Part shown: piece after piece, positions 963 to 42,993 of the stretch
Numbering within the stretch: the stretch's first letter is position 1
Layout: each line of letters begins with the position of its first letter
Source: a virus
Strand: one strand, 5' to 3'
Length of the DNA stretch: 48,209 nucleotides
Virus record (IMG/VR): IMGVR_UViG_3300041404_000129
Coordinates: 1 to 48,209 of that record
Made by a program: the position numbers and the translations under genes
The notes under the pieces: model-generated
The model's database searches: none
Seen by the model: the letters and a program-made list of their open reading frames with translations, nothing else
Told to the model about the DNA's origin: nothing

Positions 963-991
963 TTGACAACCGCAATGCGTTGATGTATAGT
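963..991 (+). promoter_or_regulatory. sigma-70-like promoter with CGCAATGCG operator
   Basis: TTGACA at 963-968 and TATAGT at 986-991 are 17 bp apart. The spacer holds the palindrome CGCAATGCG at 971-979, two bases after the -35 box. A ribosome site (AAAGGAG) follows at 1002-1008, ahead of the ATG at 1017. Four minus-strand promoters in the window have the same layout (near 32.7, 38.3, 40.8 and 43.0 kb). The operator role is inferred from position and repetition. Confidence 0.85.
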
Positions 992-1016
992 CAGGAGCAT
1001 CAAAGGAGATTGAACG

Positions 1017-1385
1017 ATGACCACAGCCAATACCACTGCCGTCGCCACGGGAACCCTCGTTGCCTATATCACCCTCGACTCCGCCCGCGAGATGCGCCGC
1101 CCGCAGGAGTCCGCCGCTGCATACGAGACGATCCTGGTGCCTGCTGGCACCTACCCGGTCGAGATCCGCCGCAGTGCCAGCGGATGGCCATACCTCGCGT
1201 CCTGCTTTCGAGGGACGATTACAGCGAGCGGATACGGTTCCAGGGTCTACACCGACCGGATCGGCCAGGAGGTCGGTCTCACGCTCCAGCCGTATCGGTA
1301 CCAGCTCCGGGCAGGCGCCTTCGCGGGAGGGTCGGTTGAGATCGTGAACGCTGAAGCGCTGGACGCCTACAGAGGCGGCGCCTGA
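1017..1385 (+). CDS. accessory protein of unknown function between tail genes
   Basis: A 122-residue protein that I do not recognise. It has no membrane segment. It contains alternating beta-like stretches (TLVAYITLD, TILVPAGTYPVEIRR, EVGLTLQPYRYQLR), suggesting a small beta-rich fold. It sits on the opposite strand between the tail chaperone and the tape measure, with its own promoter, operator and ribosome site (AAAGGAGAT) upstream and a strong hairpin just after the stop. That self-contained layout is typical of a moron, an independently expressed accessory gene. The promoter belongs to the phage-wide operator family, so it should be co-regulated with the operons at 32.7, 38.3, 40.8 and 43.0 kb. 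Confidence 0.75.
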   Translation: MTTANTTAVATGTLVAYITLDSAREMRRPQESAAAYETILVPAGTYPVEIRRSASGWPYLASCFRGTITASGYGSRVYTDRIGQEVGLTLQPYRYQLRAGAFAGGSVEIVNAEALDAYRGGA

Positions 1386-1397
1386 CCAGTCGAGACC

Positions 1398-1422
1398 GGC
1401 CTCGGTCGATGGGACCGGGGCC
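1398..1422. terminator. terminator-like hairpin between converging genes
   Basis: The arms GGCCTCGGTC (1398-1407) and GACCGGGGCC (1413-1422) pair over 10 bp with one G-T pair, around a 5-base loop. The hairpin starts 12 bases after the plus-strand stop and ends one base before the stop of the minus-strand chaperone extension. There is no clear T-run, so a two-way, GC-driven terminator is inferred. Confidence 0.6.
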
Positions 1423-2393
1423 TCATTCCGCGGCAGATCTCCGCCCGCGCCGAAGAATCCCGGCGACCTCATGCCAGAGCGCCCGGACCCACAGCATTTC
1501 CCCGTACTCGTCCACGCCATTGGCGCGGCAGATGTAGTCCATGGATTCCCGGTCAAGCTGGCCGGACATCCCCTCTCGGCGGATTTCGAAGTACTCGCGC
1601 CAGATCCACTCGGCGAGGATGGACAGCGGCTCAGGCTCGCGGCACAGGATGCAAGAAGCGATGGCCGAGGCATCTTCATGATCTCGGCCGCGACATACAG
1701 GGCACGGCTCAGCAGGCTCGCCGTGGCGTTCGTGTTGGCAGCCCTTGCATCGGAGAGCGGCAAGGCCATGCAGTGCTCGTTCTGAAGCAAATGCCGCCTC
1801 CCTTTGTTCGTCCGTTGCGGGCTTGCCGTCTACCTTCTCCGGCGCCAGGGACTCGAAGGACGCCTGCCATTCAGCCCTGGCGACTATTCCCCCCGGACGT
1901 CCTCCCGGGCTTTGCGAGCCGCTCCGGACAGGTGGCTCCACCGCGCGGTGATGAAGTCCCGGAACCTGCCGGAAAGTAGATAAAGTTCGATGAACTTCTC
2001 GCGGCTCCACGGCCATTCCGCTGCGTCTGGAACCCCCTCGGTGAACTGCCATCCCTTCACCCCGTGGCCATCGAAATATGCCTCGGCGGAGACGCGCATC
2101 TGGCCTCGAAGCGGGATGTCATCTTTCCCGCCGAGCCCGTGCGTTTTGCGGTAGCGCTTTTCGGCCACTCCGTACTGTGTGGACACGGCGAGGGACCCGG
2201 TCACATGGACCGACATCCCAGGCATATCCGGGAAGGGAAGGAAGTCGCCCTCCAAGTCCGTCGCCTCCTGCATCAGCAGGTCTTTCATGGAGGTGAACGT
2301 GCTGGCGGCCGGGGCCGGTCCGGCGTCGCTGTCCAGCGTCGCCCGCAGGCGAGTCAGCAGCTCTTCGCTGCCTTCAACTTCGATGATCGGCAT
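1423..2393 (-). CDS. tail assembly chaperone GT fusion made by -1 frameshift
   Basis: Predicted long product: 168 codons of the G frame, then a -1 shift on a run of six G (1889-1894) just before the TAG stop (1884-1886), then 155 residues in the -1 frame ending at 1423. The extension has no usable start codon near its beginning, runs open past the G stop, and encodes convincing protein with two CxxC-type pairs (CKGC and CPVC) and a later CILC, a possible zinc site. In lambda and many siphophages the same gene position makes G and GT by -1 slippage; GT bridges the tape measure and tail tube. The slip site here is G-rich rather than the lambda GGGAAAG, so the frameshift is inferred, not shown. 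Confidence 0.7.
1884..2393 (-). CDS. tail assembly chaperone, short form (gpG-like)
   Basis: A 169-residue protein starting with MPIIEVEGSEELLTRL, encoded between the tail tube gene and the tape measure, the conserved place of the tail assembly chaperone. The ATG at 2393 has CGGAGA about eight bases upstream. The family is poorly conserved in sequence, so the call rests mainly on position, length and the overlapping -1 frame that extends it. The short form should be the main product, with the frameshifted GT form a minority. Confidence 0.75.
   Translation of the reverse strand: MPIIEVEGSEELLTRLRATLDSDAGPAPAASTFTSMKDLLMQEATDLEGDFLPFPDMPGMSVHVTGSLAVSTQYGVAEKRYRKTHGLGGKDDIPLRGQMRVSAEAYFDGHGVKGWQFTEGVPDAAEWPWSREKFIELYLLSGRFRDFITARWSHLSGAARKAREDVRGE
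1887..1895 (-). promoter_or_regulatory. putative -1 slippery site CGGGGGGAA
   Basis: On the minus strand the zero frame reads CGG GGG GAA TAG. A P-site tRNA on GGG can slip back one base onto GGG, after which GGA ATA GTC is read in the extension frame. The stop codon immediately downstream would favour a pause. No heptamer of the X-XXY-YYZ type is present, so this is a candidate rather than a classic site. Confidence 0.55.
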
Positions 2394-2417
2394 ATGGTTC
2401 TATCTCCGTGCGAAAAG

Positions 2418-3653
2418 TTAGGCAGCCGGCACGCTGAATCGCGCGACCTGATATCCGAATCCAGACGACTTGTAAAACGAGGTATTGTCCTTCGCAGGGT
2501 CGTGAACCGAGAAGGTCACCGGCACGTTGCGGACGTCGTTCACCCCGCCGAAGTTTTCCTCACCCGTGTCCGGACGGCAGGCCGGGATGCTGTAAAGCTC
2601 CCGGTTCCCCTGCGCGTCAAAGACCTCCCAGGCGATGGACATGGTCTTGTGACTGTGGATCTGGCTGGACACAGCCGCCCGCGCCGCATCGTCGAAGCGC
2701 AGCGTTGCCTGGACCTGGGTCCCGGCGAAGTTGCCGAGGTCGATGGCGGCCGGCCCGGAGCTGCTGATTCCGTAGTAGGGGCCGAGGTTCCGCTGAACGG
2801 TCAGCGTCAACTCGCTGATCACGCAGGTGGTGACCGCGGTCAGCCCCGCCGAGGTGGTCTCCGCCAGCCAGATCTTGCCCACGCCGTTGGCCCCGCACTT
2901 CATCGCGTTGCTGGTGGGGGCCGCGGTATTGGAGCCGGTACCGATCGTGGCGGCGGCGGGCACCGGAGCCTTGCCCATGCCGGTCCATGTCTCGGTAGCG
3001 AACGAGCCTTGCGTCCACTTCACCGCGACGGTGCCCCACCGGATACCGGTGGCGGACTTGAACTTGTTCGTGGTGCTGCCTGCATCCGTGGCGGCCCACT
3101 CGCCGGAGTAGCTCTTTGCCGCGGTACCGTCGATCAGCCGGCGCGTCTTAATCGTGACGCTGGAGCCGGCGCTGAAGTTGGATAGCTGGCCAGCCGGAAA
3201 CGTGACCGAGCCGGCCCCCGCCGAGGTGATAGGGCCGTACCACCCGGCAACGTTCGGGGAGATGCCGGCGCCCGAGATGTACACGAAGTCGCCATTGTCC
3301 AGCGATCCGAGGCCAGAGGCAGCCTGCGAAAGCACGTTCGTTGCGACGCTGATGTCGGTGCCGGTGATCGACACGAGAGAGCCTTCATCGTTGCCGAGCA
3401 GCCCCTCCCACTGCGTGTCGGTATTCCCGAACTGGCGCAGAGTCTCGAACCCGATGCCGCCTCCTTCCTGGAGCACCTCGGAGGGATAGGTCCGGTTGTC
3501 CTGGGTGTAGAACCCCGGCACCTGTACCTGCCGGTCGCGGGAGAACGCCTGCGTGAGCCCGGTCACATTGACGAGCTGGAGCGCCGACGCCGGGGTAGTC
3601 CCGAACGCGACCTCCTCGACGAAACCCAGATACGTATTGGTCGCGAGAGACAT
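2418..3653 (-). CDS. major tail (tube) protein
   Basis: A 411-residue protein. It begins MSLATNTYLGFVEEVAFGTTP, the usual opening of phage tail-tube proteins that carry an N-terminal tube domain. The middle (about residues 80-260) is rich in Gly, Ser, Thr and Ala and may be an added surface domain. The C-terminal part returns to tube-like beta strands (TLTVQRNLGPYYGI, VQATLRFDDAAR, VPVTFSVHDPAKD). It polymerises into the tail tube around the tape measure. A strong ribosome site (GGAGGAGGT) precedes the ATG. Neighbours are head-tail joining genes upstream and the chaperone downstream. Confidence 0.85.
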   Translation of the reverse strand: MSLATNTYLGFVEEVAFGTTPASALQLVNVTGLTQAFSRDRQVQVPGFYTQDNRTYPSEVLQEGGGIGFETLRQFGNTDTQWEGLLGNDEGSLVSITGTDISVATNVLSQAASGLGSLDNGDFVYISGAGISPNVAGWYGPITSAGAGSVTFPAGQLSNFSAGSSVTIKTRRLIDGTAAKSYSGEWAATDAGSTTNKFKSATGIRWGTVAVKWTQGSFATETWTGMGKAPVPAAATIGTGSNTAAPTSNAMKCGANGVGKIWLAETTSAGLTAVTTCVISELTLTVQRNLGPYYGISSSGPAAIDLGNFAGTQVQATLRFDDAARAAVSSQIHSHKTMSIAWEVFDAQGNRELYSIPACRPDTGEENFGGVNDVRNVPVTFSVHDPAKDNTSFYKSSGFGYQVARFSVPAA

Positions 3654-3656
3654 GGA

Positions 3657-3824
3657 TTAGACCTCCTCCTTCTTCGGCGGCGTGGCTTTCTTCTTCGGAG
3701 CGAGATCAGCTGCGGCGGCGTCCTCGCGGGTCTTGAACTTCTTCTCGGCGACCTCGGTATCCCACCGCCGCAGATCGTTTATAGTGCATGTACGGGTCTC
3801 GCCGTTCACGGTAATCCGGCTCAT
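3657..3824 (-). CDS. small lysine-rich protein, unknown
   Basis: A 55-residue protein with an N-terminal strand pair (MSRITVNGETRTCTINDL) and a lysine- and alanine-rich tail. An in-frame GTG at 3842 would overlap the upstream gene, but the ATG at 3824 has GAGGAG seven bases ahead and is the better start. It lies just before the tail tube gene and is probably translated with it. The function is not recognised. Confidence 0.6.
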   Translation of the reverse strand: MSRITVNGETRTCTINDLRRWDTEVAEKKFKTREDAAAADLAPKKKATPPKKEEV

Positions 3825-3838
3825 TCTCTGGCTCCTCG

Positions 3839-4297
3839 TCACGCCGGGCGGCGGAGGTTGGTGGTGAATGACAGGTTCAAAACGATCATGTTCCAGTTGC
3901 TGTCCGGGTCGTTGACCTGGGTCTGCTCGCAGGTCTCAAACTCGATGCCGTCGATTGCTTCCCCGCGGAAGAGATCGGCAATGGTCGTTGCGGCGGCCGG
4001 CGTCACCTCATCTGGTCCGGTCGTCAGGCCGGGCGCGCCGAACACCTGTATGGCGAGCTGACCTCTCCCGATGCTGATGTGCCACCCGCCGCCGTACATC
4101 ACCGCCTGCTCGCGGTAGATGTGGCTCGGCCGAATCCAGAGAGACGCCTCCGGGTCTGCCGGGTCGAGTGCGGGCGGGGTGAACGTCGGACCGCCGTACC
4201 CGTCCCATGCGATGTTGGGCGTAGGGCTCCCGGTCGTCAGGTGATCGGCAATCGCCGTCTGCACTTCAAGGGCTCCCCACGTCAGCCCGATGCTCAC
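3839..4297 (-). CDS. tail terminator / tail completion protein (gpU-like)
   Basis: A 152-residue protein in the position of the tail terminator, between the gp10-like completion gene and the tail tube. It starts MSIGLTWGALEVQTAIADHL and ends in a beta-rich stretch (NMIVLNLSFTTNLRRPA), as in the phage proteins of about 130-150 residues that cap the tail tube. It overlaps the preceding gene by four bases (ATGA). The family assignment is by position, size and general shape. Confidence 0.6.
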   Translation of the reverse strand: MSIGLTWGALEVQTAIADHLTTGSPTPNIAWDGYGGPTFTPPALDPADPEASLWIRPSHIYREQAVMYGGGWHISIGRGQLAIQVFGAPGLTTGPDEVTPAAATTIADLFRGEAIDGIEFETCEQTQVNDPDSNWNMIVLNLSFTTNLRRPA

Positions 4298-4746
4298 CAG
4301 AGCACCACGCTTTCGGCGAATCGCGGGTCCGACTGCTTGAGTACCAGTTGATCCGCGGCTTCGAGGGCCGCCTGCCAGAACGGCTGAGCCGCCATCTTCG
4401 ACGTGCCGCGGTTCACGTAGTCCGAATACGGCGCGGCGGCGATGATTCCGCAGGGCGTTCCCTTTTCGCGCGCATTCAGCCGGGCAATCGACTGCATTAG
4501 CTGGGCGCCCGAGAGGTACGTGCCCTTCGCCTGATCGACGACGGAAGCATCGAACGATTCATCGGGGGTGCCGACCCACACCCGGATGTGAGCCTTCATG
4601 GCACCGGTGCGAACGGCGGCCAGCCGGCTCGCGGTCTGAAGCGCTTCAATCGCCACCTTCGTGCCGAATCGCTTGATGTCCTCGGCGATCTCCTTGTCCG
4701 CCCATGCCTTCAGGTCGGCAATGAATGCGGTGCTGCTGGCGCTCAC
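4294..4746 (-). CDS. HK97 gp10-like tail completion protein
   Basis: A 150-residue protein with a mainly helical N-terminal half (IADLKAWADKEIAEDIKRFGTKVAIEAL) and the family's typical end: APYSDYVNRGTSKMAAQPFW, with the Y-x-x-YVNRGTSKM-x-x-PF pattern. These proteins sit at the head-tail joint and are needed for tail attachment. The GTG start at 4746 overlaps the previous stop (GTGA) and has AGGGAG six bases ahead. A longer GTG start exists at 4797 but would overlap the upstream gene more deeply. Confidence 0.8.
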   Translation of the reverse strand: MSASSTAFIADLKAWADKEIAEDIKRFGTKVAIEALQTASRLAAVRTGAMKAHIRVWVGTPDESFDASVVDQAKGTYLSGAQLMQSIARLNAREKGTPCGIIAAAPYSDYVNRGTSKMAAQPFWQAALEAADQLVLKQSDPRFAESVVLW

Positions 4747-4970
4747 CGGCCACTCCCTTGCGCCATCTGGCGGGCTAAGGCGAGCGCTTCCTCGCACGTT
4801 GCTCCGTCGCTGACGATCCGGGCGAAATCGCCGCGGGCACGCAGCTCGTCCTCGAACGGCGCGAACGGATGCAAGACGTTGTGCGTCACCCGCTCCAACG
4901 CCCGCAGAACTTCCCTGGTGCGCCGGTCCTCGCCAGACGGTTCAATCCGTAGGTAGGTGAGGGTGGTCAC
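4743..4970 (-). CDS. small protein in the head-tail joining cluster
   Basis: A 75-residue, mainly helical, charged protein (MTTLTYLRIEPSGEDRRTRE...). It uses a GTG start that overlaps the previous stop (GTGA) and ends with the same overlap into the gp10-like gene. I do not recognise it. Its place suggests a minor connector or assembly role. Confidence 0.55.
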   Translation of the reverse strand: MTTLTYLRIEPSGEDRRTREVLRALERVTHNVLHPFAPFEDELRARGDFARIVSDGATCEEALALARQMAQGSGR

Positions 4971-5299
4971 GACGCCTTTGCCCTCATGACGTACGAGGTG
5001 ATCTGGTCGTTGGCGCGCCGCGGTCGAGTGCCAGGGATGAGCCTGTACTGCCGGTCCAGCGTCAGGATGTCGCCCGGCTTCGGCGCGGCTGACAGATTCG
5101 GATCATCCGCCGCGACTACGCACTCCAGCACGGTCTCGGTCACGCGGCTGTCGCCGACCGTGGCTTGCACTTCGCGCATGGGCGTGACTCGCACGCCAGT
5201 GTCCACGGTCGACCCCGGAAGGTGCGCCAACGTGGCATCCGATCCGAAGTGCTCTAGCCGGCGATCCACCGATGCCTTTGCGCGGGAGGCGAAGCTCAT
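4967..5299 (-). CDS. head-tail attachment protein (FII-like, by position)
   Basis: A 110-residue protein with a helical start followed by beta-rich sequence (VRVTPMREVQATVGDSRVTETVLECVVA, PGDILTLDRQYRLIPGTRP). Phages encode a head-tail attachment protein of about this size between the gp6-like connector and the gp10-like protein, as here. It overlaps both neighbours by four bases. The functional call is mostly positional. Confidence 0.55.
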   Translation of the reverse strand: MSFASRAKASVDRRLEHFGSDATLAHLPGSTVDTGVRVTPMREVQATVGDSRVTETVLECVVAADDPNLSAAPKPGDILTLDRQYRLIPGTRPRRANDQITSYVMRAKAS

Positions 5300-6120
5300 C
5301 TGTGCGCCTCCACGCCATACAGCGCCGGGAGCCGCTGGAGCGCCGCGGCATTGGTCACGTTGTAGGCGAGCGAGGTGCCGTCGCCGCTCTCGGCGGCGAG
5401 AGAAGACGACCGCTCGTTCTCGCCGTCATAGAAGAACTTGGTGAGGGTGAGCGCGTCCTGCTCAAGCAGGGACGGCAGCACCTCGCACGCGCGGGCGGTC
5501 CAGGTCACGGTCCCGTCCGTCACGGTCGAGCCCTCGGCCGGCAGAGCAGGAGCGGAGGCGCCGCTCGTCCCCGCCGTAGTGCATTCGAGGAACAGATCGC
5601 CGTGAACGTAGGCCGAGAGCGTGACCACCTTGCCCACCGTGTAGGCCGTAGCGGCGGCCCAGGTCGTCGCCTCGCCCGGCATCAGCCATCCGGTGTACAT
5701 GGTGACCACGTACCCGAGGCGCTTCTCCAGGGAGGGCTCGGCGACGATCGAGCCGTCAAGAACCCGGTCGCATTCGAACCCGTATTCGCGGTAGAGCTGG
5801 TCGCGGTGATCGCCGATGATCTCGACGTTGCCCACGTCGGAATCGTCCCGCGTGATGCTGACCAGCGTCTCGATGGGATGCCTGCTAGGACGCATGGTCA
5901 GCCGACCGTTGCCGGCCAGGGTTTCGCGAATCTTCTCCCGCCACGGGGCGTACCCGAGCAGAGCATCGGACGCGAGAAGATCCGACGCCGCCCGGATGTG
6001 CCGGGCGAGCGTGGCGTCCTCTGCGGACCCGCTGATACTCAGGTGCGTTTTCACCGTGGCAAGCTCCACCATGTTGCGGTTACGCGCCGCCTGAAGGACA
6101 ACGACCTTTCGGCGGCGCAT
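5296..6120 (-). CDS. head-tail connector (gp6-like) with inserted beta domain
   Basis: The helical connector core spans residues about 17-145 (MVELATVKTHLSISGSAEDA, then helices and LEKRLGYVVTMYTGW) and resumes after residue 215. Residues 152-209 are an insertion of the type W-x-x-x-x-AYTVGKVVTLSAYVHGDLFLECTTAGTSG...GTVTWTA, a beta module resembling carbohydrate-binding repeats found on phage structural proteins. The insertion would probably be displayed on the neck. The ATG at 6120 lacks a close ribosome site; an ATG at 6072 (MVELATV) fits the family start better but also lacks one, so the start is uncertain. Confidence 0.7.
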   Translation of the reverse strand: MRRRKVVVLQAARNRNMVELATVKTHLSISGSAEDATLARHIRAASDLLASDALLGYAPWREKIRETLAGNGRLTMRPSRHPIETLVSITRDDSDVGNVEIIGDHRDQLYREYGFECDRVLDGSIVAEPSLEKRLGYVVTMYTGWLMPGEATTWAAATAYTVGKVVTLSAYVHGDLFLECTTAGTSGASAPALPAEGSTVTDGTVTWTARACEVLPSLLEQDALTLTKFFYDGENERSSSLAAESGDGTSLAYNVTNAAALQRLPALYGVEAHR

Positions 6121-6128
6121 ACCGTTCT

Positions 6129-6617
6129 TCAGCCCCTCTTGTCGTGGCGGTTGTCACCGCGGACCATCCGGTCGACCCGCGGCGCAGGCTTCTCATCGAA
6201 TGCCGGCTCCAGGCTCAGTTCGGCTGCGGCCGGAGCGACAGGCGCGGCGACAGGGACGTATACCGCCACCGGACCGCGGCGCATCCCCTCCCACTGCCCC
6301 CCCTCGACCAGCACCTTGGCGACGTCGGCCGTGAAAGATGCGGTCTCTCCGGCCCCGTACCTTCCGCACCACTGTGTGAACTGCACCGACACGAGCGGCT
6401 TTGGCTGAGAGGGCGCAACAGGCTCCGCCGCCGCAGACATTGGGGTACCCGTGAAGACGCAGGCCACTGGCCTCCCCTCCTCCCCTTCCCTGCGAACGCG
6501 GCGCTTGCCGAGGATCTGCTTCGCGACCTGCGGCCCAAAAGACGCGGTCTCCCCGGCCTGATAGATGCCGTCGTTCTGGAGAAACTCCAGGATCACGAGG
6601 CCGGTCTCCTCAGGCAT
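6129..6617 (-). CDS. protein with two AGETASF repeats, head-associated
   Basis: The 162-residue protein holds two copies of a motif of about 33 residues: residues 8-40 (LEFLQNDGIYQAGETASFGPQ) and 76-109 (VQFTQWCGRYGAGETASF), joined by Ala/Pro-rich linkers. Short motifs of the type Y-x-AGE-x-A-x-F are common in small proteins encoded next to phage capsid genes. No enzyme motif is seen. It overlaps the upstream gene by one base. The role is unknown and probably structural or decorative. Confidence 0.55.
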   Translation of the reverse strand: MPEETGLVILEFLQNDGIYQAGETASFGPQVAKQILGKRRVRREGEEGRPVACVFTGTPMSAAAEPVAPSQPKPLVSVQFTQWCGRYGAGETASFTADVAKVLVEGGQWEGMRRGPVAVYVPVAAPVAPAAAELSLEPAFDEKPAPRVDRMVRGDNRHDKRG

Positions 6618-7063
6618 CAGACGGTCTCCTTAGGAAGAACGATCGTCGCGCCCCACGTGCAGACGTCGGTCGCACCGGCCGAGAGGTTGGGCGTGAGCTG
6701 CGCCTGGATGTACGCGCGGGCTCCGGCGAGGTCGGTCTCCAGGCACCGGTACACGCCGGTAACCGTGCTGCCTCCGGAGCCGCCGGTAGCCACGACGGTG
6801 GCAGAGAGCGCGGTCCCGAAGTCGGCCGCACCCGTCCCGCCACTGGACGTGGCATCCTGAAGGTTGCCGGAGAAGCTGAGCGTGGCACCCTCTGCCAGGG
6901 TGGCGGTGAAGGCGATGCTCACGTAGCAGCTCTGGCTCCCGGTCCGGTCGCCGAATCCGCCGCTGACCTCGGTCGCATCGCCAGCGCCGGCGGCAAGAGC
7001 GCGGCCGGCGCCCCCGTACAGCTCGGTGAGGAAGTTTCCAACGCTGTGCTCGAATGCAAACAT
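6617..7063 (-). CDS. capsid decoration/cement protein candidate
   Basis: A 148-residue protein encoded directly after the capsid gene. It is rich in Gly, Ala, Ser and Thr, with beta stretches (SCYVSIAFTATLAEGATLSFSG, TALSATVVATGGSGG) and a helical LAGARAYIQAQL near the end. This resembles Bbp16-like capsid cement proteins in size, place and pattern. AAGGAG precedes the ATG. The assignment is by context and gross similarity. Confidence 0.55.
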   Translation of the reverse strand: MFAFEHSVGNFLTELYGGAGRALAAGAGDATEVSGGFGDRTGSQSCYVSIAFTATLAEGATLSFSGNLQDATSSGGTGAADFGTALSATVVATGGSGGSTVTGVYRCLETDLAGARAYIQAQLTPNLSAGATDVCTWGATIVLPKETV

Positions 7064-7091
7064 GCTCGTCTCTCCTTGTGCGGGCCGCGGA

Positions 7092-8318: not shown

Positions 8319-8331
8319 GGTCTCTGGCTCC

Positions 8332-9393: not shown

Positions 9394-9493
9394 GATGCCG
9401 AGAGCATGCGCGGCATCTTCCGTGGAACCTAGCGTTTTGATACACTGTTGCAGTAGCTCAAAAATTCAACCGGGTACCAGGAGGAACCGCGCC
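9394..9493. promoter_or_regulatory. gap between diverging protease and regulator genes
   Basis: The gap holds a possible extended -10 for the plus strand (TGATACACT, -10 hexamer 9441-9446) and the regulator's ribosome site CAGGAGGA near 9479. No good -35 is seen. On the minus strand the protease frame stays open through most of it. Confidence 0.35.
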
Positions 9494-9748
9494 ATGGTCG
9501 AGCCACTCAGGGCTCGGAATAGCAGGCTTGCAGACCGAGGGGCGTTTGCTGACTATCTCCGCGCGTTGCGCGGCGAGCAGTCACAGCGGGAGGTTGCGTT
9601 CCGGGCGGGGAAGGCGATGTCGTGGTACCGAATCATCGAGAACGGCGGCAGGACCTACCTGACCACGGCCGAGGTGAAGCTCCTGGCCCAGGCGCTGGGC
9701 GCTGACGTGCGGGAGGTCTTCTCCGAAGCTCAGAAGGCGGGGTACTGA
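9494..9748 (+). CDS. XRE-family helix-turn-helix regulator
   Basis: An 84-residue protein. Residues about 20-75 form a Cro/CI-type helix-turn-helix: FADYLRALRGEQSQREVAFRAG, then MSWYRIIENGGRTYLTTAEVKLLAQALGADVREVF. It probably binds DNA as a dimer and may control this plus-strand island or a wider set of phage promoters. An AGGAGGA site lies about eight bases before the ATG. It sits between head genes, an odd place for a regulator. It is the only XRE protein seen in the window and so one candidate for the CGCA-W-TGCG operator, but nothing in the sequence links them directly. Confidence 0.8.
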   Translation: MVEPLRARNSRLADRGAFADYLRALRGEQSQREVAFRAGKAMSWYRIIENGGRTYLTTAEVKLLAQALGADVREVFSEAQKAGY

Positions 9749-29305: not shown

Positions 29306-29309
29306 GGCG

Positions 29310-33747: not shown

Positions 33748-33758
33748 CGCAAATCCTC

Positions 33759-35801: not shown

Positions 35802-35826
35802 GGATTCCTCCAGTTCCGAGTTGCTA

Positions 35827-35862
35827 CCGCGGAGTGTACCGCGGAGCGCAACGGGAACACAA
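35827..35862 (-). promoter_or_regulatory. RHH promoter with twin CCGCGG operator
   Basis: Reading the minus strand: TTGTGT (35862-35857), 18 bases, TACACT (35838-35833). The -10 box is flanked exactly by two CCGCGG palindromes (35827-35832 and 35839-35844), 12 bp apart, within a 10-bp direct repeat CTCCGCGGTA. This is a natural binding site for two RHH dimers. Confidence 0.6.
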
Positions 35863-35937
35863 GAGGGTAGACGAACGGCGTTCTATCTGATACCCTCGCA
35901 TCAACACTCGGAACCGGCCGCAGGCCCGGAGATGACC

Positions 35938-36612
35938 ATGGCGAAAAAGGCGAAGAAGAGCACCTATGAGATCGTCCGCGATGACGAACGACCCGACCTC
36001 TACGACCTCATGCGGGAACTGGTGGACGATCACCACGACGAGCTGCGGGACGCGCGGATCGCGATTGCATGGCGCCATGGGTGGAAGCCGGACGCGGACG
36101 GGCGCATGCACCTCGGCCAGCTCAAGAAGGCATCTGACCTGGACCGCCAGCTCCACAGCTACGACCTGATCGTCCTCCTGAACTATGAGGTGTGGACGTC
36201 GGTCAACTTCACCCCGGCGCAGCAGCGAGCGCTGTTTGACCATGAGCTGTGCCATGGCGCGCTGTCGCTGGACCCGGAGACCGGCGAGCCGCGGTACACC
36301 CCGGACGGCAGGTTGATCTACAGGACCCGCAAGCACGACATGGAGGAGTTCCGCCAGATCGTCGACCGCCACGGGATGTGGAAGGGCGACATCGCTGCAT
36401 TCGTGGAGGCGGCCATGGCGTCGAAGGCTCCATCACAGATGACACTGGAGCCGCCTGCCGAAAGCGTGGCGCAACGAGTGATCGACGCGATGGTCAGCGA
36501 TGATCCAGAGATGGCCAACATCCGAGAGGCACTACGCCCAAAGAGGGGCTCCAGTATCGAGAAGGTCACGATCTCGACCGGCGACAAGTCCGTGACGCTG
36601 GAGGCGCGCTGA
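35938..36612 (+). CDS. putative phage metallopeptidase (HELCH)
   Basis: A 224-residue protein. LNYEVWTSVNFTPAQQRALF precedes DHELCHGAL with H102, E103 and H106, a zinc HExxH site of the phage metallopeptidase family. The N-terminus is basic (MAKKAKKSTYEIVRDD). The C-terminal part is helical with an acidic stretch. The ATG at 35938 has GGAG six bases upstream; an ATG at 35932 sits too close to it. It heads a plus-strand operon with RusA. The natural target is unknown. Confidence 0.75.
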   Translation: MAKKAKKSTYEIVRDDERPDLYDLMRELVDDHHDELRDARIAIAWRHGWKPDADGRMHLGQLKKASDLDRQLHSYDLIVLLNYEVWTSVNFTPAQQRALFDHELCHGALSLDPETGEPRYTPDGRLIYRTRKHDMEEFRQIVDRHGMWKGDIAAFVEAAMASKAPSQMTLEPPAESVAQRVIDAMVSDDPEMANIREALRPKRGSSIEKVTISTGDKSVTLEAR

Positions 36613-37007
36613 TGGCACGACCTATACCCGGAGCCCAAACCGTGAGCGCGCCATGGCAGGCCCCGGACCTGACGGCAGAGGAGCGCGGCAGGCTGCTGAA
36701 ATGGTTGCCGGCAGAGGCGGAGCCCCATCCGCTGGCGGTAGCAGGCTATCTACGTAACGTCAAACGCCACGCCGAGCAGTGGGGTCCGGTGCTCATAGCG
36801 GCGCTGATCGAGCGCGGGGTACTGGAGTCGGAAGGAAACCCGCTCGATGCGTTGGACGAGTTGCTGGCGCCCGAAGGCAAGGGATGGGTGGACATGCCGC
36901 CTGATGCCCCGTTCCGATGCGGTGACTGTGAGTGGCACGGGAAGTGTGGGCGCCTCGACGCCGCGGGGAATTGCCCGGCATGCGGCGGGCAGGTGGAGCC
37001 GCTATGA
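36612..37007 (+). CDS. zinc-ribbon protein between peptidase and RusA
   Basis: A 131-residue protein: helical first half (LTAEERGRLLKWLPAEAE, VLIAALIERGVLE) and a C-terminal zinc ribbon (RCGDCEWHGKC, NCPACGG). TGATG overlap with the peptidase and ATGA with RusA. Role unknown. Confidence 0.6.
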   Translation: MARPIPGAQTVSAPWQAPDLTAEERGRLLKWLPAEAEPHPLAVAGYLRNVKRHAEQWGPVLIAALIERGVLESEGNPLDALDELLAPEGKGWVDMPPDAPFRCGDCEWHGKCGRLDAAGNCPACGGQVEPL

Positions 37008-37528
37008 GCGTGCCGCGGAGCGTTGCGTTCTTCGTGCCCGGAGTCCCTCAGCCGGGCGGATCAAAGAAGGGTTTCGCCATCCAGAACAAGGCAACCGGGA
37101 AGTGGCGGGCTATCGTGGTGGAGGACGCGAAGCACAACGCCTCATGGCGGGCCGTGGTATCCCTTGCCGCACAAGAGGCCGGGTTTGATCCGTTCCTTGG
37201 CCCGGTTGTCCTGACGCTGGAATTCAGGATGCCGCGCCCGAAGGGGCACTACGGGACCGGCAGGCGCGCGCACGTATTGAAGGAGTCGGCGCCACTCGCG
37301 CACACATCGAAGCCGGATCGCACGAAACTCATGAGATCCACCGAGGACGCGCTCACCGGCATCGCCTGGAAGGACGATACACAGGTAGTAGACGGTCGAA
37401 CAACGAAGCTCTACACCAACGATGGCCGGCCCGGGTGCATGATCACCATCACCGAGTTCCTGGGCGATCGCGTTGCCAGAGCGGTGGTAGTCTCTGTGCC
37501 CGTCGAACAGGTCGGGCTGCCTCTGTAG
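37004..37528 (+). CDS. RusA-like Holliday junction resolvase
   Basis: A 174-residue protein. Family motifs are HTSKPDRTKLMRSTEDALTG (residues 100-119) and WKDDTQVV (122-129), with conserved acids D105, D115, D124 and D125. RusA cuts Holliday junctions and branched DNA before packaging. It is the last gene of its operon and is followed by a hairpin. Confidence 0.88.
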   Translation: MSVPRSVAFFVPGVPQPGGSKKGFAIQNKATGKWRAIVVEDAKHNASWRAVVSLAAQEAGFDPFLGPVVLTLEFRMPRPKGHYGTGRRAHVLKESAPLAHTSKPDRTKLMRSTEDALTGIAWKDDTQVVDGRTTKLYTNDGRPGCMITITEFLGDRVARAVVVSVPVEQVGLPL

Positions 37529-37536
37529 GGGGAGGG

Positions 37537-37561
37537 GCGGGGCCTGACCTACCGGCCCCGC
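37537..37561. terminator. terminator-like hairpin between converging operons
   Basis: GCGGGGCC (37537-37544) and GGCCCCGC (37554-37561) form a perfect 8-bp stem with a 9-base loop, nine bases after the RusA stop and seven before the end of the converging minus gene. No T-run. Confidence 0.6.
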
Positions 37562-37567
37562 AGGTGG

Positions 37568-37978
37568 TCACGTCGCGGCGGCTGCCGCCTGATGCGCGGC
37601 CAGGATCTTGGCCAGAAGCTTGGCCCTCTCCGCGTAGTGCAGCTCGTAGCCGTCCGTGTTGCAGATCCGCTCGGCGCATGCGTCGCACCGATAGCTAAAC
37701 CTCGGGTCAACTGATGGGTGGGGCTTCCTGCATGTCACGCACGTGATCCACTCATCTATGGCCGTCGCGTATGTGTCCGCGGCCGCTCGAGGTAGCTTGC
37801 ACTCCGGGCACTCGGCCTCGTCGGGATACCGCGGTTCGTCGCAGTGCGGGCACTCCCAACCGCCGTTCTTCGTGCACCACTCCTCGTGCCGTCCGCTGAA
37901 GATCTCTTTGACGGTGCGGTCATCGCGGATCGCTACCGCCGGTTTCGCCGCGTAACAGTTGCATGCCTGGGCGGTCAT
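37568..37978 (-). CDS. protein with several zinc-ribbon CxxC pairs
   Basis: A 136-residue protein. CxxC pairs: CPHC, CPEC, CVTC and CDAC, plus CNC near the start and a late C, enough for two or more zinc sites. The C-terminal helix is alanine-rich (LLAKILAAHQAAAAAT). Third gene from the 38.3 kb promoter. ATGA overlap. Role unknown. Confidence 0.6.
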   Translation of the reverse strand: MTAQACNCYAAKPAVAIRDDRTVKEIFSGRHEEWCTKNGGWECPHCDEPRYPDEAECPECKLPRAAADTYATAIDEWITCVTCRKPHPSVDPRFSYRCDACAERICNTDGYELHYAERAKLLAKILAAHQAAAAAT

Positions 37979-38160
37979 CTCGGCACCTCCGGCCGCCGGA
38001 GCCGGTCAACATTCGTCGCGTGGCAGAACACCTGGACCGACCCGGAGATGAACGGCGCGTGCACCAGGAGCTTGCCGCCGTGCAGCGGGTGGCACCGATC
38101 CGAGCTGAGGAAGCCCTGGAGCCGCGCGGCGGAGAGGGGGAGGCCGCGGAAGACGGTCAC
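37975..38160 (-). CDS. small protein, unknown
   Basis: A 61-residue, slightly basic protein with a beta-like centre (KLLVHAPFISGSVQVFCHA). GTG start by GTGA overlap with the gene at 38157. Not recognised. Confidence 0.5.
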   Translation of the reverse strand: MTVFRGLPLSAARLQGFLSSDRCHPLHGGKLLVHAPFISGSVQVFCHATNVDRLRRPEVPR

Positions 38161-38291
38161 GCGAGCGACTTCCTAAGCGCAGAGATTTCCGCAAGGAGTG
38201 ACTCGACTTCTTCTGGCTCCAGGCTGTCGGCGTTACCTTCCAGAAACTCCTCCAGATCCTCAATCGTTGGCTGCATGCTCTCAACGTTCAT
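38157..38291 (-). CDS. 44-residue acidic helical protein
   Basis: A very small, strongly acidic protein with a single helical pattern (PTIEDLEEFLEGNADSLEP, VESLLAEISALRKSL). It is well supported: it follows an operator-type promoter, has the leader AGGAGGATTTGCG, and ends in GTGA overlap. Its charge suggests a protein-protein or DNA-mimic role, not proven. Confidence 0.65.
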   Translation of the reverse strand: MNVESMQPTIEDLEEFLEGNADSLEPEEVESLLAEISALRKSLA

Positions 38292-38327
38292 CGCAAATCC
38301 TCCTGGGCTCTCGCCCTGACAAGAAGA

Positions 38328-38356
38328 ACTATACGTTAACGCAATGCCGTTGTCAA
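38328..38356 (-). promoter_or_regulatory. promoter with GGCATTGCG operator
   Basis: Reading the minus strand: TTGACA (38356-38351), 17 bases, TATAGT (38333-38328). The operator (38348-38340) differs from the palindrome by one base. The stop codon of the upstream gene (38355-38353) lies inside the -35 box. Confidence 0.82.
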
Positions 38357-38661
38357 GTGGTGGCGGCAGGTCTCCCGGTCTCCGTCTCCGCTGCCTTCGA
38401 CAGGCGAGTCCGGACCCACTCCGAGACGTCCAGCCCTGCCACCCGCGATGCGTGGCGAAACCGGATCTTCTCCGTATTCGTGACGCGCACCACGAGTTGT
38501 GCCTCCTTGTCTCCCTTGCGGGCAGGTGCGGCCTTGATTCCGTGCTTGCGCAGAACCATGCTGACCCATTGCCGCTTCACCCTTGCAAGCTGGCACAGAT
38601 CGTCCACCGTGAGCGACGGGTCCCGGCGGATGGCTTCGAGGATGACGTCCGCGGCGGTCAT
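38353..38661 (-). CDS. HTH protein with RHH-like C-terminal part
   Basis: A 102-residue protein. Residues about 12-42 form a helix-turn-helix (LTVDDLCQLARVKRQWVSMV); residues about 58-95 have a strand-helix-helix pattern (AQLVVRVTNTEKIRFRHA, LDVSEWVRTRLSKAAE) like an RHH domain. Two DNA-binding modules in one short protein would be unusual. Last gene of its operon. Confidence 0.6.
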   Translation of the reverse strand: MTAADVILEAIRRDPSLTVDDLCQLARVKRQWVSMVLRKHGIKAAPARKGDKEAQLVVRVTNTEKIRFRHASRVAGLDVSEWVRTRLSKAAETETGRPAATT

Positions 38662-39053
38662 TCGGCCAGCTCCTGGCATGCGCGGTCGATCCTCTCGCGG
38701 AAGTCGTCGAAAGGGAACCCGTGCTCGCCGTCCAACTTAGCCAGTAGCTCCCGCCGGATGCGGGCGCGCTCCTCGGTGGCGCCGGCCTTCAGGAGGTCGG
38801 CGGCGACCGACGCCTCGATAGCCACCTCCGAGAATCCATGAGCGTGCCCCTTCTCCCATGCGTACTGGAGCAGGGCATCGGACGCCGGTCCGGCGCTCAG
38901 CCCCAGGTGGGCAAGCAAGTCATCCACGAAGAGCCTGTACAGTCGCGTGGTCTCCTGCTGGTACGCCTCCCATGCCGCCAGGTCGTCACTCTTTCGCGCA
39001 TACGGGAGCGCGTTGCTGTACTTCCCCTCGTTGATCTCGTCGAAGATGTTCAT
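38658..39053 (-). CDS. helical protein of unknown function
   Basis: A 131-residue, acidic, helical protein (LAAWEAYQQETTRLYRLF, ERARIRRELLAKLDGEHG, FPFDDFRERIDRAC). Similar small helical proteins are common in phages but none is identified. ATGA overlaps at both ends. Confidence 0.55.
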   Translation of the reverse strand: MNIFDEINEGKYSNALPYARKSDDLAAWEAYQQETTRLYRLFVDDLLAHLGLSAGPASDALLQYAWEKGHAHGFSEVAIEASVAADLLKAGATEERARIRRELLAKLDGEHGFPFDDFRERIDRACQELAE

Positions 39054-39241
39054 CGCGACACCCCGAGCGCCTTGCGCACGTCGTCACAGAGGGCCTGGAC
39101 TTGCTCCCCTGCGCCGACGTCCATCTCAGGGGCGGCTCTTTCCCACTGCTTCAAAATCTTGATAACTGTGCCCCGCGTGGAGGCGACGCCCTCTTCCTTG
39201 CCGTCGAGATAGGCGCTGTTGATATCGTCCAGTGTGCTCAC
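39050..39241 (-). CDS. small helical protein, unknown
   Basis: A 63-residue protein (MSTLDDINSAYLDGKEEG..., VIKILKQWERAAPEM). GTG start by overlap with the gene before it (GTGA). Confidence 0.5.
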   Translation of the reverse strand: MSTLDDINSAYLDGKEEGVASTRGTVIKILKQWERAAPEMDVGAGEQVQALCDDVRKALGVSR

Positions 39242-39525
39242 GGTGCCACCTCCCCGGCCGGTCGTCCGACCCCGCGCAGGCGGTCTAGCCGCTTCTGTAC
39301 CTGCTGCTCACCAAGCGCCACCACCTCCTCGGTGGTCAGGCGGGCGAACACGAGAGCGGCAACGAGCTTCTCCATCTCGGCGATGGTCACCCCTGCCGCC
39401 GCGGCCGTCGCCTTGATCGTCGATGCGATCTCGGGCGGGACGGCAAGCAGCATGCCGCGGGGCGTGCGCGGCTTGTTCTCTATCAGCGGAACGGACTCCA
39501 CTACGGTCAATCTCTTGTCGGTCAT
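39238..39525 (-). CDS. small protein, unknown
   Basis: A 95-residue protein: a flexible Pro/Arg-rich start, then helices (PPEIASTIKATAAAAGVTIAE, LVAALVFARLTTEEVV). GAGGAG lies eight bases before the ATG. The pattern of the first helix could be RHH- or HTH-like but is not clear. Confidence 0.5.
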   Translation of the reverse strand: MTDKRLTVVESVPLIENKPRTPRGMLLAVPPEIASTIKATAAAAGVTIAEMEKLVAALVFARLTTEEVVALGEQQVQKRLDRLRGVGRPAGEVAP

Positions 39526-39749
39526 TTTGTCTCCTCGGTAGATGCTGACGGGAACTGAATGCCATGCCGCTTGCAGAAGCGGCGAGCGCCTTTCTCGTCG
39601 GTGTCTCGCTTTGCGACGCGAGGCCAACGCCCGCGCACGCCTTCGTAATACCTGTCATAGGTCCATGAGATCCGGTAGAATGTCTCGCCCATCCACGAAA
39701 TGCGCTGGCAGTGATGCCCGTAACTGACGGACGGCCTGTACCGACTCAC
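39522..39749 (-). CDS. small aromatic and basic protein, unknown
   Basis: A 75-residue protein rich in Tyr, Arg and Trp (RISWMGETFYRISWTYDRYY), ending in a short helix (GARRFCKRHGIQF). GTG start (GTGA). Possibly nucleic-acid binding by composition only. Confidence 0.5.
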   Translation of the reverse strand: MSRYRPSVSYGHHCQRISWMGETFYRISWTYDRYYEGVRGRWPRVAKRDTDEKGARRFCKRHGIQFPSASTEETK

Positions 39750-40000
39750 GGCTTCCCCTTCGCGCGATACCGGATGCGCATCGTGCCCCCGAGCGGAGTG
39801 CGCTCCACGTCCGCCTTGCCGCGCCCTACCAGGACGCGGAGGTCAGTGCGGAGCGTGGCTATCCGTAGCCGCAAAGTGCGGACCGGGTCCGTGTCGCCAG
39901 GCGGCGCCTGCCAGTCCATCAGCTCGGCCACTACCCGCCACCCGCCCAACTCGGCCAGCGTGCGGAGCAGGTCCAGCCGGCGCTTGGTTGCCGCGCTCAC
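39746..40000 (-). CDS. winged-helix-like small protein
   Basis: An 84-residue protein: helices KRRLDLLRTLAELGGWRV and TLRLRIATLRTDLRVLVGRG, then a hairpin VERTPLGGTMRIRY, a layout like a winged helix. GTG start by GTGA overlap. Target unknown. Confidence 0.5.
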   Translation of the reverse strand: MSAATKRRLDLLRTLAELGGWRVVAELMDWQAPPGDTDPVRTLRLRIATLRTDLRVLVGRGKADVERTPLGGTMRIRYRAKGKP

Positions 40001-40455
40001 TGGTACGCCTCGTCCATCTCTTGACCGTGGCACTGTTCGGCGATCCGCTCGCTTTCGCGTTCGACGTTGTCCAGCCATGCCGAGACCTGATCATCTGCCA
40101 TCTCGAAAACTACCAACCGGTCATGGTTCATCTCGACGCGGACCGCAAATCCAGCCGCCCGCAGGTGGAGTGCCATGGCGGACAGCGTGCCGCACCCGAA
40201 CGGATTGCACGCCGCCGTTGCGGAGTCCAACGAAGCGCCGCAGGAGATGCACTGGTCCTCGGTGTCACCCTGCGGACGCGGGGCCGACACGATGGAGACA
40301 GAGACTTCATCGTGTCGATCCGCTGGGTACCTGACCGCGACGCCCGGCCTCAGGAGTTGAGGCGGCACACCGACAGGCATCTCGCGAAACTTCGCCGTGG
40401 AGAACCCATGTCGGCGGAGCACGGCGACGACGCGGCCACGGAGGTCGCGGCTCAC
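39997..40455 (-). CDS. unknown protein with Cys cluster
   Basis: A 152-residue protein. A basic helical start (RVVAVLRRHGF) and beta stretches (EVSVSIVSAP) lead to CISCGASLDSATAACNPFGCG, a likely metal site, then FAVRVEMNHDRLVVFEM. GTG start at 40455 by GTGA overlap. Confidence 0.5.
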   Translation of the reverse strand: MSRDLRGRVVAVLRRHGFSTAKFREMPVGVPPQLLRPGVAVRYPADRHDEVSVSIVSAPRPQGDTEDQCISCGASLDSATAACNPFGCGTLSAMALHLRAAGFAVRVEMNHDRLVVFEMADDQVSAWLDNVERESERIAEQCHGQEMDEAYQ

Positions 40456-40760
40456 GACTCCACCCCGCCTTCGATCGGTTGCCACGTCAGGCGCTTGTAG
40501 CTGTCGCCAGCCTTGAGGACGTCGGTGCCCTTCTGTGCCGCACGGCGGAGCAGGATGAACCGGGCGAACTCTTCGGGCTCGAAAGCCAGGTCAACGGGAA
40601 CGCCTGCTCGAAGCTTCCGCCCGACGTGCTCGTCCCAGATATCCAGGGGAGCCCCATCGAAGCCTGCCGCTGTCCGCACGATCCCCTCCAGGGCGGCGAT
40701 GACGGCCGCCGAGTCGGGCGACTTCGGCGGGGTGATCTTGATCCGTGCGTTAATCTTCAT
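40452..40760 (-). CDS. unknown protein heading the 40.8 kb operon
   Basis: A 102-residue protein (MKINARIKITPPKSPDSAAV..., IWDEHVGRKLRAGVPVDLAF, RFILLRRAAQKGTDVL). AGGAGGAAATGCG before the ATG. First of eight coupled small genes ending at 38353. Confidence 0.55.
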   Translation of the reverse strand: MKINARIKITPPKSPDSAAVIAALEGIVRTAAGFDGAPLDIWDEHVGRKLRAGVPVDLAFEPEEFARFILLRRAAQKGTDVLKAGDSYKRLTWQPIEGGVES

Positions 40761-40782
40761 CGCATTTCCTCCTGATGCGCTG

Positions 40783-40812
40783 ACCATATCAAAGACGCAA
40801 TGCGTTTGTCAA
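40783..40812 (-). promoter_or_regulatory. promoter with CGCATTGCG operator
   Basis: Reading the minus strand: TTGACA (40812-40807), 18 bases, TATGGT (40788-40783). The operator (40804-40796) extends to an 11-bp palindrome ACGCA-T-TGCGT, two bases after the -35. The stop codon of the gene at 40809 lies within the -35 box. Confidence 0.8.
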
Positions 40813-41198
40813 GCATCGAGACGGAGAAGGGCAGCGCGGATCTTCGCATCGACGTCGCCGAACCGATCGCGGACCGCCTGCTCGTGTCGCTCACGGTCGG
40901 CACGCCAGCTTACGGGCTCTCGATCGCGGGTGAACACTCTCAGGTCCGGAGGAGCATCGTCGACCGGTCGGCCCATCCCGGCCGCCCTCCAGCACTCCGC
41001 CCGCATCTCCATGGATTGGACGTCAGAGATCTCGCCCAGCTTCGCTGACATCACCACGATGCGCCCGCCGAGGTCCGCCTCCTGGATCAACTTCATCCGC
41101 CGGGCGACGGTCGGGAGATGGCGCAGAGCCTCCGGTGGATCGGTCCACATCCAGAGCAGCCGCGCCTTGGCCTTCTTGTTGTCGAGATCGGCGGCCAT
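40809..41198 (-). CDS. unknown protein
   Basis: A 129-residue protein, helical and basic, with RLLWMWTDPPEALRHLPTV, LGGRIVVMSAKLGEI and RERHEQAVRDRFGDV. TGATG overlap with the gene before. Not recognised. Confidence 0.5.
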   Translation of the reverse strand: MAADLDNKKAKARLLWMWTDPPEALRHLPTVARRMKLIQEADLGGRIVVMSAKLGEISDVQSMEMRAECWRAAGMGRPVDDAPPDLRVFTRDREPVSWRADRERHEQAVRDRFGDVDAKIRAALLRLDA

Positions 41199-41602
41199 CA
41201 CGTCTTCCGGGCTGACTGCCGCACCTTGAACGCCGCCGCCCGCTTCTCCGCGAGCGCACAGGCGGCGCGCCGAAGCTTCCGCGCGGCCCACTGATCGCGT
41301 TCCGTGGTTGAGACGAGATCTCCCGTCTTCGGCTTCCCCTTCCTCTTGACCGGAGTCTCTACCTCCCTCCAGGTGAGGTAGTAGCCGGCCACGTTGCGCA
41401 CCGTGGCGTAGCAGAATCGCACCGTCCGCCCACGTCCGTCCTTACCGGCCGGCCAGTACCGGTAGCGCTCCGGTCCATCGAGAAGCTTCGACAGCTTGTG
41501 CGCGACGGGGTCCAGCCGCGCAGCTTTGGCTTCCCGGTCGTTGCGTGCACGCTCCAGGTCCCGAAGCATGGGGGCAAGAGCCGCTTGAAGCCGCGCATTC
41601 AC
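41198..41602 (-). CDS. basic protein of unknown function
   Basis: A 134-residue, Arg/Lys-rich protein: helical start (LAPMLRDLERARNDREAKAA), a beta centre (RFCYATVRNVAGYYLTWREV) and a basic end (LRRAACALAEKRAAAFKVR). GTG start by GTGA overlap with the HNH gene. Possibly nucleic-acid binding. Confidence 0.5.
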   Translation of the reverse strand: MNARLQAALAPMLRDLERARNDREAKAARLDPVAHKLSKLLDGPERYRYWPAGKDGRGRTVRFCYATVRNVAGYYLTWREVETPVKRKGKPKTGDLVSTTERDQWAARKLRRAACALAEKRAAAFKVRQSARKT

Positions 41603-42462
41603 CGCCCACCTCCGAGCACCGCCGCACGAGGAGCGCACCCACCGGCCGCCCATGCGCGGAGGCCGATCTCGTCCCGACCGGTCAGGGGCAGCCTGTACCG
41701 TTCGGCCACGGCGCGCAGCCGCTTCGCCGCGAGGATGCGGGCGCCTCGGGTGGCCGGGCACCACTCCGCCGGCATCCGGTCGGACTTCTGGCCGTTCGTG
41801 CGGGAGCGGGTGGCGAGGAGGTTCAAGGGGTCGTTGAAGAAGGTGGAGTAGGACGGGCAGCGATCCGCCTCCGTGCACCGCGAGCCGTTCGACAGGCGCC
41901 ACGTGCCGCGGGTCCAGGCGACGGAGGCCGGGTAGATGTGATCAACCTGGATGGATTGCGAGGCGGTATCGGTCGCGATCTCCGCGCCGCTGTACACGTC
42001 CAGGCAGACGGCCTGTCGGACGCGGCACCCGCGGTCGTCCCACGTCACGCTCGCGCACTGCGACTCCAGCACCTCCGCCCGCGTGTCCTTGCAGTCGCGG
42101 TCAGCGTCCGCCCACCGGGGCCGGTCGTAGGCGGCAGCAGGGAGGGCGAGGCAGAGGAGGAGCAGCAGGAGCGCGCTGAACACCTGGAGCGGCCGCCACG
42201 CCGTAGCGGTTCTGAGCCAGTAGGTTGTACAGATTTGCCCTGAAGGGGTCACCGAAGCAGAGCATGAAGTGACCTCCGGCAGCTCCGGGCTCCAGAACCG
42301 GGGCTTGCCGGTGTCGACCTCCTGCCAGATGCCAGCGTGCTTGATTTTGGGCTGCTCCATGGTCAGCCACCGCCGCAGGGCAACGTAGCCAGCGGGCGGA
42401 GCGGCGTCGATCATCGCGGCAGTCAGTCGGTCCAGCTTGGCGGAAAGAGACTCGTCGTTCAT
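41599..42462 (-). CDS. membrane-anchored or secreted HNH nuclease (DUF1524-like)
   Basis: A 287-residue protein in three parts: residues 1-90 hydrophilic and unknown; 94-111 a hydrophobic segment (VFSALLLLLLCLALPAAA); 112-287 a Cys-rich nuclease with VDHIYPASVAW (H175), NDPLNLLATRSRTNGQKS (N210, N214, N223, K226) and P-x-x-WCP. Six or more Cys suggest disulphides, so it acts outside the cytoplasm. An in-frame GTG at 42183 would give a clean signal peptide and a 194-residue secreted enzyme, but has no ribosome site; the ATG at 42462 has AAGGAGGATGCG. It may attack incoming or released DNA. Confidence 0.72.
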   Translation of the reverse strand: MNDESLSAKLDRLTAAMIDAAPPAGYVALRRWLTMEQPKIKHAGIWQEVDTGKPRFWSPELPEVTSCSASVTPSGQICTTYWLRTATAWRPLQVFSALLLLLLCLALPAAAYDRPRWADADRDCKDTRAEVLESQCASVTWDDRGCRVRQAVCLDVYSGAEIATDTASQSIQVDHIYPASVAWTRGTWRLSNGSRCTEADRCPSYSTFFNDPLNLLATRSRTNGQKSDRMPAEWCPATRGARILAAKRLRAVAERYRLPLTGRDEIGLRAWAAGGCAPRAAVLGGGR

Positions 42463-42484
42463 CGCATCCTCCTTAAAGAAACGC

Positions 42485-42531
42485 TCCCGGGCTTTGGACC
42501 GGGACTGCGGTTTAACGGGGCTGGAGCCCCG
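42485..42531 (-). terminator. two tandem hairpins before the HNH gene
   Basis: On the minus strand the first stem is 42531-42516 (CGGGGC/GCCCCG, 4-base loop) followed by TTAAA. The second is 42504-42485 (TCCCGG/CCGGGA, 8-base loop) followed by a T-rich GCGTTTCTTT. They would limit reading from the 42.9 kb promoter into the HNH gene. Confidence 0.6.
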
Positions 42532-42544
42532 CCCATCACCGGTG

Positions 42545-42916
42545 CTAGAAGCTGTAGTCGTGATACTGGCGCCGATCGCCGATCCGCAGGCGCCCGCTGT
42601 TACCGACGAAAGCGCCCGCCTTGTTCCTCTTGAAGCGCATCGTTGCCCCAGCGAGGTTGCGCGTGTATTCGTACGTCTGCATCTCGCTCATGCCGTTGTC
42701 ATCGGTCCGCGTGGCCGTGTCTTCCTGCACCGTCACCTCGGAAACCTGACCGGCCCGCGTACCGGACTTGAAGCGAGAAACGGCGATGATCGTAGCGGCC
42801 CGCCTGTCGGTCCACATGAGGATAGTGGCGCCCATCCCGACTTCCGGCTTCGGCTGCCCGTTCGTACCCGACATCAGGTAGTTGCTGACACTGCCGGTCT
42901 CTTTTCCAAGTCTCAT
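42545..42916 (-). CDS. unknown protein under operator control
   Basis: A 123-residue protein with beta-rich sequence (GATILMWTDRRAATIIAVSRF, VSEVTVQEDTATRTD) and a motif GMSEMQTYEYTRN seen in small phage proteins of unknown role. AGGAGGA precedes the ATG. It stands alone between an operator-type promoter and tandem terminators. Confidence 0.6.
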   Translation of the reverse strand: MRLGKETGSVSNYLMSGTNGQPKPEVGMGATILMWTDRRAATIIAVSRFKSGTRAGQVSEVTVQEDTATRTDDNGMSEMQTYEYTRNLAGATMRFKRNKAGAFVGNSGRLRIGDRRQYHDYSF

Positions 42917-42964
42917 GAGCGTTCCTCCTGTCGGTCAGCCGGTCAATCCCGACTGACAAGAGAG

Positions 42965-42993
42965 ACTATACGGCTTTGCAATGCGCTTGTCAA
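42965..42993 (-). promoter_or_regulatory. promoter with CGCATTGCA operator
   Basis: Reading the minus strand: TTGACA (42993-42988), 17 bases, TATAGT (42970-42965). The operator (42985-42977) has one mismatch to the palindrome. A strong terminator for upstream transcription ends just before it. Confidence 0.82.

Follow-up and report, generated by a model that had tools for sequence, protein, structure and literature searches.

A palindrome in the spacers of five scattered phage promoters, a putative shared operator

Five promoters with a common spacer palindrome

We analysed the whole of IMG/VR record IMGVR_UViG_3300041404_000129 (48,209 bases, no kin listed; hereafter the window), a phage with genes for a portal, head morphogenesis, an HK97-type capsid, terminase, a DnaB-like helicase, a replication initiator, exonucleases and RusA. 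The window has no tRNA, and no integrase was seen among those of its proteins that were scanned (part of the set only). Five of its promoters carry, between the −35 and −10 hexamers, the palindrome CGCAWTGCG, which may serve as an operator. P1 (963..991, plus strand) reads TTGACA-AC-CGCAATGCG-TTGATG-TATAGT, with the putative operator dyad, CGCAATGCG, at 971..979. The other four lie on the minus strand: P2 (32714..32742) is TTGACA-AC-CGCAATGCG-GCGTTG-TATAGT, P3 (38328..38356) is TTGACA-AC-GGCATTGCG-TTAACG-TATAGT, P4 (40783..40812) is TTGACA-AA-CGCATTGCG-TCTTTGA-TATGGT, and P5 (42965..42993) is TTGACA-AG-CGCATTGCA-AAGCCG-TATAGT. The original prediction, made from the letters of the window, gave these coordinates and strands correctly. 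Each promoter is an exact match to TTGACA-N2-SGCAWTGCR-N6/7-TATRGT, and the palindrome is, as claimed, perfect at three sites with one mismatch each at 38328 and 42965. The excess over chance that was to be looked for is there: five matches in the window versus a mean of 0 in 100 dinucleotide shuffles.

The hexamers of P1–P5 agree with the consensus at 10–11 of 12 positions, at a spacing of 17–18. A search with the hexamers only (TTGACA-N17/18-TATRGT) returned six window matches, namely P1–P5 and a further promoter, P6. The core GCAWTGC thus lies at spacer bases 4–10 in five of the six consensus sigma-70 promoters. Given six promoters, the chance that it recurs there in four of the five others is about 1e-15 from base composition, a figure that takes the promoters to be independent and does not, on its own, tell function from common descent. 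The motif is not enriched across the window: CGCAWTGCG with at most one mismatch occurs at 16 sites versus 22.5 expected, and the core at eight versus 7.6. Since five of these eight cores sit at the identical place in P1–P5 and the total is at chance level, the site is a promoter element rather than a dispersed repeat. We rejected stoperators or other extra sites because cores outside promoters are no commoner than chance predicts and the site is symmetric.

Common descent could also yield such a pattern, if the five promoters were copies of one cassette spread by recombination and the dyad had been kept with no regulator acting on it. Some likeness downstream would fit this: TCTTGTCAG follows the −10 hexamer in both P3 and P5 (38316-38334 and 42953-42971, minus strand), P1 and P4 both have GCATCA close to the probable start, and the leaders have a ribosome-site block in common, which makes up most of the downstream resemblance. 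The upstream flanks are dissimilar (all pairs p>0.07), so copying of a whole cassette or recent duplication was rejected, and the dyad has been kept while neither these flanks nor the rest of the spacers are related. Sequence constraint is limited to the −35 hexamer, the spacer dyad, the −10 hexamer and the ribosome site. Descent from one cassette also leaves unexplained why different dyads occupy the same place in P6 and in the second phage group described below, and we regard it as very unlikely.

Two further features of these promoters were recorded. The block TCTTGTCAG is the inverse of TGACAAG at the −35 hexamer, and TTCTTGTCAG follows the −10 hexamer in an unrelated phage promoter (contig L030, near 10890, minus strand). 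CATCA occurs some 6–9 bases past the −10 hexamer in P1, P4 and many promoters of the second phage group (window positions 992-1002, plus; 40775-40782, minus; 35900-35910, plus); it is perhaps a preferred start site.

Other palindromes at the same place

The original prediction counted five promoters and overlooked the sixth consensus promoter, P6 (43606..43635, plus strand), which has a palindrome of its own. It reads TTGACA-CACCGTAGCGGTGTCTCG-TATGGT, and its dyad, ACACCG-TAG-CGGTGT, is unlike that of P1–P5; no further copies of it were found. Read from the sequences, the dyad centre falls on spacer base 7 in all six promoters. Directly 3' of P6 lies a gene for a 74-amino-acid protein (43643..43867, plus strand) with a ribbon-helix-helix (RHH)-like pattern by eye. 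It has no Pfam match, and its structure model, of low confidence and with no strand, is too weak to use. This protein could possibly be the autoregulator of P6, a suggestion that we make weakly.

Homologs of the P5 gene (42545-42916, minus strand) led us to contigs of an unrelated phage group with promoters of the form TTGACA-TGCCC-N3-GGGCA. A scan for this pattern gave 26 stretches, and at least 9 contigs have 2–3 exact copies. The members of the group (L101, L103, L104, L107, L112, L114-L118, L077, L078 and L095) have several such promoters per contig, with up to six sites per 14–18 kb fragment when one mismatch is allowed; the sites in L111 and L120 look like chance. Among 39 distinct sites, one-base −35 variants included, 33 have a −10-like hexamer at a spacing of 16–18, versus 3% at random places, and most are followed, after a short leader, by a small open frame. 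As in the window, the dyads centre on spacer base 7. The P5 gene lies 3' of such a promoter in L077, L095, L114 and L116, and it is the only gene common to the window and these phages, barring two marginal short matches. We rejected a palindrome as a general rule upstream of P5-gene homologs, as it is significant in some only.

If the proposed control is real, the two groups together would provide a testable rule, by which dyads centred seven bases after TTGACA would reveal phage regulons from sequence alone. It is conceivable, if rather unlikely, that scattered small-gene promoters with a short dyad centred on spacer base 7 form a general class in phages, in which lineages run separate regulons and operator and small repressor are swapped between them while the geometry is kept. 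Were this so, whole sets of takeover genes could be controlled, or made immune, together.

Genes downstream of the promoters

P1 precedes an open reading frame (1017-1385, plus strand) between the probable start of the tape-measure gene and a tail gene. P2 is followed by a ParB/IbrB-like gene and a PAPS-reductase/DUF3440 (IbrA-like) gene, with the replication and head genes beyond. IbrA/IbrB pairs have already been reported in environmental phage genomes (PMC4490671). The P3 unit comprises 38157-38291, 37975-38160 and 37568-37978, and the P4 unit a run from 40452-40760 to 38353-38661, all on the minus strand. The P5 unit, on the same strand, holds the P5 gene, an HNH-like gene (41599-42462) and two more. 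The product of the P5 gene, a small and widespread phage protein, belongs to a small family with members in Synechococcus, Streptomyces, Variovorax and Burkholderia phages (34–43% identity).

These units were originally described as scattered accessory genes. This holds only in part, as no consensus sigma-70 promoter other than P2 precedes the replication and head genes on the minus strand. No second consensus promoter was found on the minus strand from P2 to the left end of the window, so P2 may serve these genes besides the IbrAB-like cassette.

The motif in other viruses and bacteria

Apart from the window, no viral contig or bacterial genome that we scanned has two copies of the motif. Among viral contigs, the strict motif occurs only in L006 and L007, a homologous pair that we did not count as support: the number is about that expected by chance, and the sites belong to an HNH gene in a methyltransferase frame. 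This HNH endonuclease gene has its own promoter inside the DNA methyltransferase reading frame, which is open throughout in another frame (L006:6889-8019, L007:553-1713). The relaxed motif gave 34 single matches in the viral scan, mostly chance or AT-rich promoters. One of them, in L030, resembles P3 and P5 and was rejected as a second case because the contig lacks a second copy.

The five promoters could instead be tied to a host signal, if a host-encoded regulator binds the palindrome. They are of the ordinary sigma-70 type, and the host may lie outside the genome set. However, a host regulon should yield several matches per genome, and across 84,980 species genomes of bacteria and archaea (representative genomes, exact pattern, contigs under 3 kb absent) our scan gave 18 matches, never two in one genome, at unrelated genes. 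Finding at most one copy in each bacterial genome and each other virus favours a phage-borne regulator, and we consider a host regulator improbable.

The one relative

A DNA search of phages found no close relatives of the window phage. Searches with TerL and the capsid protein gave one true relative, G003 (96,984 bases), and otherwise remote matches. G003 has the whole head and tail block in common with the window (TerL 61%, capsid 60%, portal 50%) and has spacer palindromes of its own. CCCAWTGGG occurs in two divergent promoters, at 84,310 (minus) and 84,335 (plus), the latter driving an RHH-like protein; two divergent promoters of G003 form, by their overlap, a single large and imperfect dyad (TTGACAACTGCGCC...GGCGGTGTCAAG; L089 16495-16549). 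GGACAATGTCC lies in a promoter at 95,827 (plus) that is divergent from an RHH gene, whose product scores above the Pfam cut-off for the antitoxin family TacA1. Two RHH genes of G003 adjoin promoters with CAWTG-centred spacer palindromes.

Candidate regulators

The last gene of the P4 run (38353..38661, minus strand) encodes 102 amino acids with a predicted N-terminal helix-turn-helix (HTH) and a putative C-terminal, NikA-like RHH part, and its 3' end overlaps the −35 hexamer of P3. An AlphaFold2 model has a three-helix HTH, followed by an extended stretch and then by two helices (62-75 and 79-95). The likeness of the HTH half to known DNA-binding HTH domains is local only. The C-terminal half is 40% identical over 45 amino acids to the G003 RHH protein beside GGACAATGTCC. 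Sequence and model predict that the protein binds DNA; because of this, and because it is made from P4, ends on P3 and has a G003 relative beside a dyad promoter, we rank it first, tentatively, as the regulator of P1–P5.

It comes ahead of the candidate originally named, the XRE-family protein at 9494..9748 (plus strand), which would act on the same operator. This is a genuine HTH_31 protein (32.9 bits, cut-off 27), and short odd-centred palindromes are commonly bound by XRE proteins. It is conserved in G003 at the same place (56% identity), but G003 keeps the protein without the motif. Its own gene, alone among head genes, has no motif copy nearby, where the usual autoregulation would place one, the only promoter-like site there being a weak TTGATA/AAAAAT. 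The recognition helices of the 9494 protein and its G003 homolog differ (AMSWYRIIENG versus NQDWYRHIEDG), so its specificity could have changed. On balance, we think it doubtful that this protein is the repressor. A search of phages for homologs of 38353-38661, the 9494 protein and the RHH proteins of G003 found none.

A proposed repressor-operator switch

The best reading is the one originally proposed, in which a protein bound in the spacer blocks RNA polymerase and places the five promoters under shared control; the constrained dyad and the same layout in a second phage group both point to it. CGCAWTGCG is probably the operator of one phage-encoded repressor that switches five transcription units together; the binding, the repression and the phage origin of the protein we infer from sequence. 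A repressor dimer on the dyad would cover about −29 to −17, between the hexamers, and would sterically keep sigma-70 polymerase off five otherwise near-consensus promoters. The small-gene operons would then switch jointly with P2, beyond which lie the IbrAB-like, replication and head genes. If 38353-38661 is the regulator, its synthesis from the P4 operon would make the system self-limiting, as with Arc of phage P22 on Pant.

The dyad might alternatively be a site for an activator or for DNA modification. With hexamers at 10–11 of 12 consensus positions and a normal spacing, an activator would be needless; MerR-type sites need spacers of 19–20 bp, so a repressor fits better than an activator of that type. 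As to modification, no methyltransferase match was seen among the window proteins scanned, which were part of the full set. We give this alternative very little credence, the least of all those considered.

Several observations weigh against a dedicated repressor or against our first candidate for it. The dyad has only 9 bp, short for a lone operator, and P5 retains just 7. Both halves of 38353-38661 score under the curated Pfam cut-offs (22.6 bits versus 27 for the NikA-like half), and Foldseek found no significant whole-chain match for it. The fragments of the TGCCC phages have no NikA-type RHH gene, so the link with RHH proteins does not generalise. Finally, the CGCAWTGCG promoter was not found in G003, the sole relative in collections, and the operator is therefore not traceable through evolution. 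Absence of the motif from relatives had been named at the outset as what would refute the prediction, and taken literally this is the case in G003; yet that phage has the other spacer palindromes, as would be expected if operators diverge fast. There the dyad centre is spacer base 11 or 12, not 7.

If a repressor-operator switch is at work, the operator shows which of the small genes in these phages are under joint regulation. It would also help in the search for the switch protein, and provide compact, tightly placed repressible promoters.

Comparison with known systems

The operator sequence described here is new, as is its putative regulator; dispersed operators are a kind already known. 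Arc of phage P22 is an RHH repressor that acts on Pant through a 21-bp operator between the −35 and −10 hexamers of a single promoter. The location between the boxes is alike in the window, which differs in having five promoters and a 9-bp dyad.

The repressor of cluster A (L5) mycobacteriophages likewise has many sites genome-wide, and specificities diverge between L5-type relatives (PMC6550527). Its 20–30 sites are asymmetric, 13 bp long and mostly outside promoters, where they block elongation (PMC6550527), whereas the five here are symmetric and all in promoters; extra asymmetric sites in one orientation outside promoters, the mark of stoperators, were not found in the window. The ESAS of cluster K mycobacteriophages resemble the window's sites in being inverted repeats scattered ahead of small phage genes, but they come as pairs of imperfect 17-bp repeats next to a start-codon motif and not as a sigma-70 spacer dyad (PMC3203893). 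MrpR of SPbeta binds about ten promoters dispersed over the prophage, most of which serve small genes of unknown function, via the element SPBRE (PMC10516654). SPBRE is 15 bp long and its binding protein is tyrosine-recombinase-like (PMC10516654); motif, protein fold and host type all differ from those proposed for the window. The two systems are alike in having one repeated motif at scattered phage promoters, which in the window is a putative binding site.

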